The position numbers and the translations under genes were made by a program. The notes beneath the pieces were generated by a model, which was not told where the DNA came from, did no database searches, and was given only the letters and a program-made list of their open reading frames with translations. DNA of 38,730 nucleotides from the NCBI GenBank assembly GCA_017354415.1, contig JAFMQY010000013.1, positions 1-38,730 of the forward strand. Direction: 5' to 3'. Positions 36,580-38,353 of this stretch are shown piece by piece; the stretch's first letter is position 1; each line of letters starts with the position of its first letter. This DNA is from Nocardioides sp. GTDB lineage: Bacteria > Actinomycetota > Actinomycetes > Propionibacteriales > Nocardioidaceae.

Positions 36580-36596
36580 TTCCGCTCACAGCGGAA
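36580..36596. promoter_or_regulatory. PopR/ClgR-type operator 1, upstream of the regulator gene
   Basis: TTCCGCT-CAC-AGCGGAA is a perfect 7+3+7 palindrome, 41 bp before the regulator start. Its core TCCGCT-N3-AGCGGA is repeated exactly at the clpP promoter (38335-38353), which argues for a shared regulator. The CGCT-N3-AGCG centre fits the ClgR consensus of actinobacteria. Confidence 0.75.
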
Positions 36597-36636
36597 TCGG
36601 GGGTAGATCGGCCGGGCGCGCGCCTAGCATCGGGTC

Positions 36637-37041
36637 ATGGGTGACGTCGTCCAGCTGCCGGTGCGCCGGGAGCAACCGCAGGAGCACACCGACCGACCGC
36701 AGCGCCAGGCGCCCGCGCCGCTGGAGACCGAGCCGAGCGAGAGCAGACACGGCGAGTCGCCCCGTGAGACCCGGCCCGGCGTCGAGCCGCTGTGGCGCGA
36801 GTCGGTCGGCCGAGAGCTGCGGCGTGAGCGACTGGCTGCCGGCAAGCGACTCGTCGACGTGTCGGAGGAGGCAGGGGTCTCGCCGCAGTACCTCTCCGAG
36901 GTCGAGCGCGGACTCAAGGACCCGTCCTCGGAGCTGCTCGCCGCGATGGCCGGGGCGCTCGGGCTGAGCGTGGCCGAGATCGCGACCCGGGTCGGGACCA
37001 GCAGCCCTTCGACTCAGTCGCCGGTCTACCTCGCCGCGTGA
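36637..37041 (+). CDS. XRE-family regulator, PopR/ClgR-like
   Basis: 134 residues: a disordered, charged N-terminal 50 residues, then a helix-turn-helix (SVGRELRRERLAAGKRLVDV and SEEAGVSPQYLSEVERGLKD) near residues 55-95, the ClgR/PopR pattern. The protein ends in VYLAA; a C-terminal pair of alanines is the degradation signal described for Streptomyces PopR, which ClpP removes. It is convergent with and overlaps the 3' end of the second clpP gene by 16 bp. Operator-like palindromes lie before it and before the clpP pair, so it probably activates or represses that operon and is itself a Clp substrate. Confidence 0.8.
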   Translation: MGDVVQLPVRREQPQEHTDRPQRQAPAPLETEPSESRHGESPRETRPGVEPLWRESVGRELRRERLAAGKRLVDVSEEAGVSPQYLSEVERGLKDPSSELLAAMAGALGLSVAEIATRVGTSSPSTQSPVYLAA

Positions 37042-37649
37042 GCCACCACTCCACCAGCCGGGTCACGCTGGGTGATCACGGCATCGACGATGCCGTAGTC
37101 CCGCGCCTGCTCCGCGGTGAGCACGAGGTCGCGCTCGGTGTCCTCGCGCACCTCGTCCGGCGTATGCCCGGTGTCGTGTGCCAGCAGCTCCTCGAGCAGC
37201 GACCTCACCCGCTCGACCTCCTCCGCCTCGAGGATCAGGTCGGGGACCGCGCCTCGGCCCTCGGCCGCCGGTGCGTGGAGGACGACGCGGCCGTGCCGCA
37301 GGATCTGCCGTCGCCCGGGAGCACCACCGGCCAGCAGCACCGCGGCCGTGGCCACCGCCTGGCCCACACAGGTCGTCTCGACCGCCGGCCGCACGAACTG
37401 CATCGCGTCGTAGATCGCGAGCATGGCCGGGATCGAGCCGCCCGGTGAGTTGATGTAGAGGTTGATCGGCGCGTCCGGGTTCTCGGACTCGAGGTGGATC
37501 AGCTGCGCGATGACGGTGTTCGCCACGCCGTCGTCGATCGGCGTACCGAGGTAGATGACCCGGTCGGCGAGGAGCCGGCTGTAGACGTCGACGGTGCGCT
37601 CGCCGCGGTTGGTCAGCGTGGTCACGTAGGGGATCGGGTACGACGACAT
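37026..37649 (-). CDS. ClpP-like subunit lacking the catalytic serine
   Basis: 207 residues of the ClpP fold with the oxyanion/N-terminal elements intact (YINSPGGSIPAMLAIYDAMQ near 65-82). The triad can be aligned by the fixed spacing of 25 and 49 residues: His125 (RVVLHAP) and Asp174 (TERDLVL) are present, but the nucleophile position 100 is Ala in GQAVATAAVLL, where active subunits have Ser (GxAAS). It should be a non-catalytic partner of the upstream subunit, comparable to cyanobacterial ClpR. One base separates its ATG (37649) from the previous stop. Confidence 0.85.
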   Translation of the reverse strand: MSSYPIPYVTTLTNRGERTVDVYSRLLADRVIYLGTPIDDGVANTVIAQLIHLESENPDAPINLYINSPGGSIPAMLAIYDAMQFVRPAVETTCVGQAVATAAVLLAGGAPGRRQILRHGRVVLHAPAAEGRGAVPDLILEAEEVERVRSLLEELLAHDTGHTPDEVREDTERDLVLTAEQARDYGIVDAVITQRDPAGGVVAHAAR

Positions 37650-37650
37650 G

Positions 37651-38265
37651 TCAACGCACCCCCAACCCGAGGGGCCGGCCCGCAGACGGCCGGATCTCCT
37701 CGATCGAGCTCACCACGTGGTCCACGAAGCCGTAGCCGAGGGCCTCGTCGGCGCTGAACCAGCGGTCGCGCCGCGAGTCCCGCTCGACGGTCTCGACGTC
37801 CTGGCCGGTGTCATGGGCGATCAGCCCGAGCACGGTGTCGCGGGTGTGCCGCAGGTCGTCGGCCTGGATCGCGATGTCCATCGCGGAGCCGCCGATCCCG
37901 GAGGATCCCTGGTGGAGCAGCACCCGCGCGTGCGGGAGGGCGAACCGCTTGCCCTTCGCCCCTGCGCTGAGCAGGAACTGGCCGGCGCTCGCGGCCATCC
38001 CCATCGCCAGGGTGCTCACGTCGTTGGGGATCAGCGTCATCACGTCGCGGATGGCGAGCATGGCCGGGACCGAACCGCCCGGCGAGCTGATCCACAGATG
38101 GATGTCGGCGTGCGGGTCGCGTGCGGAGAGCACCAGGAGACCGGTGCACAGCCGGTTGCCCAGTGCCTCGTCCAGCACCCCGCCCATGACCAGCGTCCGC
38201 TGGTCGAGCAGGCTGCCGGCCAGCTCGTCGTCGACCCGGCGCCAGGCCGTGGTTTCGTCAGTCAT
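37651..38265 (-). CDS. clpP: ClpP protease subunit, catalytically complete
   Basis: 204 residues. Ser93 in GMAASAGQFLL, His118 in RVLLHQG and Asp167 in SRRDRWFSA keep the exact 25- and 49-residue spacing of Escherichia coli ClpP, and the substrate-binding strand HLWISSPGGSVPAML is present. It should form rings, probably mixed with the inactive subunit, docking to a ClpX or ClpC ATPase encoded elsewhere. ATG 38265 was chosen because the longer frame runs through the operator region. First gene of the pair; the operator at 38335 is 70 bp upstream. Confidence 0.88.
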   Translation of the reverse strand: MTDETTAWRRVDDELAGSLLDQRTLVMGGVLDEALGNRLCTGLLVLSARDPHADIHLWISSPGGSVPAMLAIRDVMTLIPNDVSTLAMGMAASAGQFLLSAGAKGKRFALPHARVLLHQGSSGIGGSAMDIAIQADDLRHTRDTVLGLIAHDTGQDVETVERDSRRDRWFSADEALGYGFVDHVVSSIEEIRPSAGRPLGLGVR

Positions 38266-38334
38266 GGAGCCACGGTGACACCCGCCGTACGCCGTCCGAA
38301 GAGCATGCTGCCGGGAGCGGAACGGCCGTCGGCT

Positions 38335-38353
38335 GATCCGCTGCCAGCGGATC
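38335..38353. promoter_or_regulatory. PopR/ClgR-type operator 2, upstream of the clpP operon
   Basis: GATCCGCT-GCC-AGCGGATC is a perfect 8+3+8 palindrome sharing the TCCGCT-N3-AGCGGA core of the operator before the regulator gene. The about 300-bp space around it (38266-38566) holds no gene that can be supported. Confidence 0.75.

Follow-up and report, generated by a model that had tools for sequence, protein, structure and literature searches.

What switches on a second pair of clpP genes that stands beside its own regulator, and which of its two subunits would do the cutting? Both questions are raised by a 38,730-nt stretch of Nocardioides sp. (assembly GCA_017354415.1, contig JAFMQY010000013.1; the window, below, is this whole stretch), in which the gene of a helix-turn-helix (HTH) regulator, popR, converges on two clpP-like genes. 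We denote the first subunit of this pair and its gene A and clpA, and the second B and clpB. With a probability of about 0.72 the locus is a backup protease switch of the PopR-clpP3clpP4 type, a self-activating latch held off by proteolysis, whose product would join a cutting ring (A) and an inert docking ring (B). In Streptomyces lividans PopR is the activator of a second clpP pair, clpP3 clpP4 (PMC9775585, PMC9765437; statements cited by PMC number rest on extracts of those papers).

Survey of popR loci

The comparison comprises 113 loci with 110 distinct regulators, the window included. Of these loci, 51 came from one collection scan (L051-L053, HTH genes without clpP, were left out), and 60 rows were taken from among the best-scoring matches of a scan that covered 394 genomes in the class and gave some match in 387 of them, ClgR included, so that the sample leans to close relatives; 20 of the 60 rows are from one large genus, probably Streptomyces ('Streptomyces-type' below). 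Eight plasmid loci were added, with L165-L168, which have no regulator, left out. For seven of the 110 regulators both clp genes are absent from the stretch, and for one clpA is.

The gene order is conserved: popR is convergent with the pair, and clpA precedes clpB, in 101 of the 102 loci holding all three genes. Within the genus of the source genome a PopR-level match (E at most 1e-20, our own threshold on the class scan list) occurs in 11 of the 20 genomes sampled; in the ten of these other than the source genome the pair is again close by. In genome G377 popR and the pair are on different contigs, yet the operator array is still present (L205).

Operator boxes and promoter geometry

The preliminary description of this DNA had reported identical TCCGCT-N3-AGCGGA palindromes before the regulator gene and before the clpP pair. 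Both are present, and a search of the source genome (4,050,549 bases, 346 contigs, completeness 90.6) finds exactly these two; 0.45 matches are expected by composition, and the backward pattern was found once. While the palindrome holds as described, the array had been seen incompletely: two more 15-bp units adjoin the palindrome before the pair, so that the clpA array is a run of three adjoining 15-bp units, of which two come within one mismatch of the relaxed consensus TCYGCY-N3-RGCRGA (Table 1). The PopR site before clpP3 of S. lividans is made of two adjoining 15-bp boxes (PMC9775585).

Boxes with at most one mismatch to the relaxed consensus lie before 86 of the 110 regulators and 92 of the 98 clpA genes; windows drawn at random from these loci gave ~7%, and the backward pattern was found before 3/110 and 1/98. 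When up to two mismatches are allowed, the boxes upstream of clpA form 92 pairs 15 bp apart, i.e. contiguous, and 14 pairs 20 bp apart, the latter being the Brevibacterium form. The spacing to the promoter recurs as well: a [TC]ANNNT hexamer follows the gene-proximal box after 28-29 nt at 72 of these 86 regulators and 55 of these 92 clpA genes, and an in-frame start follows it after 40-41 nt at 64 and 59 of them, respectively.

Table 1. Features of the popR-clpP locus, in coordinates of the window
Feature	Position	Strand	Remarks
Single operator box before popR	36581..36595	+	TCCGCT-CAC-AGCGGA = TCCGCTCACAGCGGA
-10-like hexamer TAGCAT, popR promoter	36625..36630	+	29 nt after box, 6 nt before start codon
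popR-type regulator gene, 134 aa	36637..37041	+	Xre-type HTH at residues 58-116
Codons for terminal Leu-Ala-Ala of regulator, proposed degradation tag	37030..37038	+	
clpP4-type subunit (B), ClpP2 lineage, catalytic Ser to Ala	37026..37649	-	3'-terminal 16 bp shared with popR
Codon GCC, Ala100 of B, at catalytic serine position	37350..37352	-	motif GQAVATAA
clpP3-type subunit (A), ClpP1 lineage, Ser-His-Asp triad intact	37651..38265	-	
Weak -10-like hexamer CACCGT, clpA promoter	38272..38277	-	29 nt after gene-proximal box
Gene-proximal operator box before clpA	38307..38321	-	TCCGCTCCCGGCAGC; 1 mismatch to consensus
Middle 15-bp unit of clpA array, degenerate	38322..38336	-	TCAGCCGACGGCCGT; 3 mismatches, by eye
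Distal operator box of clpA array	38337..38351	-	TCCGCTGGCAGCGGA (TCCGCTGCCAGCGGA on +); palindrome of the preliminary description

In the window the distances from box to -10-like hexamer (29 nt) and from box to start codon (41 nt) are the same at popR and clpA. Because this equal spacing leaves only 6 nt between hexamer and start codon at both genes, both promoters (36625-36639; 38263-38277) probably give leaderless mRNAs, to judge by geometry. The equal spacing also suggests that PopR perhaps activates its own gene, which would make the circuit a latch released when proteolysis fails. The opposite arrangement, in which the regulator acts as a repressor at one promoter or at both (at popR as an autorepressor) and clpP3P4 is derepressed when it is lost, would likewise predict a single box before the regulator gene. 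The popR box, however, overlaps neither the -10 hexamer nor the start codon and is spaced to both like the proximal box of clpA, where the Streptomyces homologue activates; we regard repression as decidedly unlikely.

The genome-wide operator search leads us to claim no further regulon member: among the nine relaxed sites outside the locus, the eight inspected (all but C263) have no TANNNT 26-31 nt downstream. In one of these eight (L069, C132:13437-13451, minus strand) the box is followed 18 nt on by TAGGCT and then by ATG (by eye), unlike the 29-nt spacing. Elsewhere in the survey, five popR-type genes (L112, L122, L123, L139 and L140, four of them in the Streptomyces-type genus) have no clpP pair within ~4 kb, and at L122 and L123 two adjoining degenerate boxes lie before popR itself. 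Eight loci near clpP in Streptomyces-type genomes with such an orphan popR were scanned; they contained no contiguous array, and scattered one-mismatch matches were seen in two.

The regulator and its C-terminal end

The regulator carries an HTH domain (HTH_31, 47.9 bits; HTH_3, 46.9 bits) and matches the ClgR model weakly (64.5 bits, with a cut-off of 170). Another gene of the same genome (C31) scores better on the ClgR model, 110.5 bits versus 65.8 for the regulator, both being below 170; it adjoins a cinA-like gene (by eye), and its product ends in ASAA. Since the better ClgR match lies elsewhere in the genome, the window regulator is a paralogue of ClgR, as PopR is, and the suggestion of a PopR/ClgR-like protein can be narrowed by comparison to a PopR-type one.

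The Leu-Ala-Ala end noticed earlier is indeed there (the tail reads SPVYLAA), and terminal alanines prove to be a common feature of PopR-type regulators. Among the tails of the 110 distinct regulators 95 end in Ala-Ala, 92 in Leu-Ala-Ala and ten in Val-Ala (eight of the last being SLVA, the Brevibacterium form), and inside the same tails Ala-Ala has a frequency of 0.016 per position. The overlap of popR with clpB does not explain this end, because only eight loci, the window among them, have the overlap, and 87 of the 102 tails without it end in Ala-Ala. The tag of the transfer-messenger RNA (tmRNA) of the source genome, ANAKRTDFALAA, also ends in Leu-Ala-Ala, so that the regulator carries a tag-like end. 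As ClpX together with ClpP1P2 degrades PopR of Streptomyces in vitro (PMC9765437), the Nocardioides regulator may, by analogy, be degraded through its Leu-Ala-Ala end.

Lineage of the ClpP pair and loss of the catalytic triad in its second subunit

FastTree was run on 255 sequences whose triad positions had been blanked; in the resulting tree, A and the housekeeping ClpP1 proteins are separated from B and the housekeeping ClpP2 proteins with a support of 100. The PopR-linked A sequences make one group (support 96), as do the B sequences (81) and the housekeeping ClpP2 sequences (98); the ClpP1 sequences do not, two label changes being needed. By this grouping the window pair is classified as a ClpP3/ClpP4 pair. 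It is the second pair of its genome; the other, clpP1-clpP2, lies elsewhere, has intact triads and is followed by a clpX-like gene (by eye). The same genome encodes a fifth, distant ClpP-like protein (L058, contig C340, 9988-10494; 76.5 bits), in which no catalytic motifs were seen by eye.

The Ser-His-Asp triad is present in A of the window. In B the nucleophile motif reads GQAVATAA, with Ala in place of Ser, and the motif is gap-free in the five alignments to solved ClpPs shown; His and Asp of the triad are kept, so that B has Ala-His-Asp where Ser-His-Asp makes the full triad. Judged by these residues, B is homologous to ClpP without being a complete ClpP peptidase. The loss is widespread: the triad is broken in 91 of the 102 B sequences, whereas it is intact in all A (101/101), housekeeping ClpP1 (26/26) and housekeeping ClpP2 (26/26) sequences. 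In one-letter code the B triads are AHD (19), WHT (17), SGD (16), ARD (13), SHD (11, the only intact ones), GHD (9), WHD (6), GHE (3) and eight singletons. The Streptomyces-type B sequences keep Ser and have Gly for His in 17 of 17 cases, including the plasmid copy of S. fungicidicus (L161). Parsimony on a maximum-likelihood tree of B and ClpP2 requires at least six changes between intact and broken triads, with 12 changes at the Ser column and six at the His column, and nine if only losses are allowed on the same topology; these numbers are approximate, 51 of the 125 inner branches of that tree being weakly supported.

One could suppose that B is a decaying gene and not a working non-catalytic subunit, and the variation of the triad residues by lineage (A, W, G, F at Ser; G, R, Q, T, D at His) would fit decay. 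Yet the ratio of nonsynonymous to synonymous substitution rates (dN/dS), calculated on cores only, as whole-frame values are inflated by overlapping frames, is 0.15-0.17 for B (window versus three near relatives), as low as for A (0.15-0.16). The reading frame of B is intact, the CLP_protease match is full (213 bits), and Leu114 and Tyr62 are kept in 102 and 101 of the 102 B sequences. The fold appears unproblematic, since the ClpP Pfam match covers model positions 2-181 of 182. B is under purifying selection, not decaying, and we regard decay as very improbable. That B still cuts by means of another residue is hardly credible to us. A substitute could be sought in the Thr next after the Ser position (as in GQAVATAA), which the Ala, Trp and Streptomyces forms have; but GQAVAVGA and GQAIGPAA, likewise without the serine, have no such Thr, and in Streptomyces it is His that was lost.

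Search listings of the open-access PMC literature and extracts of PMC9765437, PMC12607617, PMC9775585, PMC8182300, PMC4416901, PMC4989188 and PMC4673316 yielded no comment on a lost triad in ClpP4 of actinobacteria or on autoregulation of popR, a scope that leaves out the original PopR papers of 2000 and 2002 and does not establish absence from print.

Predicted division of labour between the rings

In ClpP1P2 of S. hawaiiensis the ClpP2 serine can be replaced with activity intact, the cutting being done by ClpP1, and the ATPases act through ClpP2 by way of three pocket positions (PMC9765437); in the mature numbering of E. coli these are 60, 62 and 82 (our own conversion). At positions 62 and 82 B resembles ClpP2: in addition to the nearly invariant Tyr62, Phe or Tyr82 is present in 76 of the 102 B sequences (His in 26), and all 26 housekeeping ClpP2 proteins have Tyr62 and Phe or Tyr82. 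A has Trp62 in 71/101 and Leu82 in 75/101. Given the pocket residues of B and the S. hawaiiensis precedent, the natural reading is that A would cut and B would dock, with little selection on catalysis by B; by analogy we predict one catalytic ring (A) and one inert docking ring (B).

The residue at position 60 is Ser, Ala or His in 84 of the 101 A sequences, and aromatic in 21 of the 26 ClpP1 sequences. In Streptomyces ClpP1 a change of the Tyr there to Ser impaired acyldepsipeptide binding (PMC9765437), and ClpP3P4 is reported to be insensitive (PMC12607617).

The 3' ends of popR and clpB are more than 200 bp apart in 19 of 102 loci; six of the inserts were inspected by eye, and none of the genes in them was Clp ATPase-like. 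In two Brevibacterium loci (L037, L046) ~2.6 kb lie between popR and the pair, with a histidine-kinase-like and a response-regulator-like gene (by eye).

Proposed operation of the circuit

PopR would be made at a low level and destroyed, via its Leu-Ala-Ala end, by the housekeeping ClpX-ClpP1P2. When the housekeeping protease fails or is saturated, PopR would build up and bind TCYGCY-N3-RGCRGA boxes, one box at its own leaderless promoter and the array of adjoining boxes at the clpP3P4 promoter, and would activate both from the same geometry, closing a self-activating latch. In the resulting protease the ring of ClpP1 lineage (A) would cut, while the non-cutting ring of ClpP2 lineage (B) would support assembly and dock a Clp ATPase. 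Activation and degradation by ClpP1P2 are taken over here from Streptomyces by analogy, as is the division of labour. In S. lividans at least one of clpP1P2 and clpP3P4 is needed for viability; on deletion of clpP1clpP2, ClpP3 and ClpP4 are expressed, ClpP1P2 being what silences them and destroys PopR (PMC9765437).

The preliminary description had proposed a self-limiting circuit, with the regulator in control of the clpP operon and destroyed by Clp protease; so read, the clpP pair of the window would itself degrade the regulator, and the operon would shut itself off. The degradable-looking end and the operators on which it relied are present; it is the shut-off by the product that does not carry over, as PopR of S. 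lividans is an activator destroyed by the separate ClpP1P2 (PMC9765437). Since clpP3P4 is on there without ClpP1P2, PopR would be a sensor of housekeeping failure. ClpP3P4 is, moreover, called non-isofunctional (PMC12607617), and B of the window has no catalytic serine. A loop closed by the product pair is thus unlikely.

Several observations weigh against the PopR latch. In the window alone, matches with at most two mismatches are not in excess (two found versus 3.53 expected), and the relaxed consensus is not enriched genome-wide (11 sites versus 15 for the backward control), so that the operator case rests on position and on conservation, on the exact genome count and on the relatives. The clpA gene has a weak -10 hexamer, and the 28-29-nt spacing is missing at 37 of 92 clpA promoters. 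The 21 Streptomyces-type popR regions contain no exact box (one mismatch in eight, two in 11 and three in two), which means that self-activation may not hold everywhere. Nor is it certain that docking goes through B, because the pocket of B differs from that of ClpP2 at E. coli positions 49 and 92, with His49 in 92/102 and Val92 in 94/102, the commonest ClpP2 residues there being Cys and Leu. Finally, RelB2 was shorter-lived in E. coli when any one of ClpP1, ClpP3, ClpP4 and ClpP5 of S. cattleya was present together with ClpX (PMC4989188), although the host ClpP may have acted and these genes are not matched to A and B.

The remaining point of this kind concerns ClgR. In the 600 bp that precede the conserved part of the housekeeping clpP1 gene, a PopR-type match with one mismatch was found in 13 of 26 regions, that of the source genome included, six of the 13 being inside the coding part. 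At the clpP1 promoter of the source genome (L054) lies a box of hybrid form, TCTGCTGTCGGCGAA, which differs from the PopR consensus by one mismatch; in L054 and L175-L199 a ClgR-type box precedes clpP1, and in several genomes of the genus Nocardioides the left half of this box resembles that of the PopR type. By their letters, then, the operators do not separate PopR from ClgR sharply. Could ClgR, and not the neighbouring regulator, act at the window boxes? A ClgR-like gene is present in the same genome, and the two operators have the inner core in common. However, when the ClgR-type consensus TTCGCY-N3-RGCGAA (our extension of the published GTTCGC-5N-GCG) is used, the best matches at the 26 housekeeping clpP1 genes all end in GCGAA (18 with one mismatch, eight with two, none exact), and ClgR-type matches with at most one mismatch precede only 7 of 110 popR and 3 of 98 clpA genes. 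In addition, four of the nine genomes of the genus without a PopR-level match were checked, and at E 1e-30 each has only two ClpP matches, as would be expected if the housekeeping pair were the sole one. Control by ClgR is therefore improbable in our judgement; the PopR- and ClgR-type operators differ in the right half, and the PopR-like left half is a possible point of cross-talk.

Comparison with known systems

The ClgR-clpP1P2 system occurs also in other actinobacteria besides Streptomyces. The window shares with the ClgR-clpP1P2 system of Streptomyces a related HTH domain, a related operator core and the terminal Ala-Ala, and differs from it in that the ClgR-type box ends in GCGAA and in the lower score of the window regulator on the ClgR model given above. 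The closer likeness is to PopR-clpP3clpP4 of S. lividans, with an HTH regulator paralogous to ClgR, a second clpP pair, adjoining 15-bp boxes, a terminal Ala-Ala and a separate housekeeping clpP1P2 (PMC9775585, PMC9765437). The Streptomyces-type loci compared have the same layout as the window. Unlike them, the window has a perfect palindrome as its popR box, and its operator half is TCCGCT where that of Streptomyces PopR, whose boxes are of the type TCTGCC-N3-GGCAGA, is TCTGCC; its B lost Ser (Ala), whereas the Streptomyces-type B has Gly for His.

With both catalytic and triad-less subunits in it, the core predicted from the window genes is also like the cyanobacterial ClpP3/ClpR and plastid ClpPR cores. 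Cyanobacterial ClpR is without the triad, and ClpP3/R is active with ClpC (PMC4673316). A difference is that B groups with actinobacterial ClpP2, in a tree that contained no ClpR sequence; at most, B may work like a ClpR.

A wider view can be put forward tentatively, at rather less than even odds. PopR circuits across Actinomycetia would be self-activating latches that lead from a housekeeping Clp with two intact ring kinds to a ClpPR-like core; the inert docking ring would have evolved repeatedly (Ser to Ala, Trp, Gly, Phe; His to Gly, Asp) because a ClpP2-type ring needs docking and not catalysis, and the catalytic ring, mostly without an aromatic residue at position 60, would be antibiotic-insensitive by design.

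The regulatory loop is already known from Streptomyces, and the Nocardioides-type genome mainly widens its range and sharpens its operator. The less expected part is the repeated, lineage-specific loss of the triad in one of the two subunits of a backup protease while purifying selection continues. The loss can serve as a natural experiment on the reason for two subunit types in two-ring Clp cores and on whether P2-type rings need catalysis, and it may help to explain the insensitivity of the backup core to ring-targeting antibiotics.

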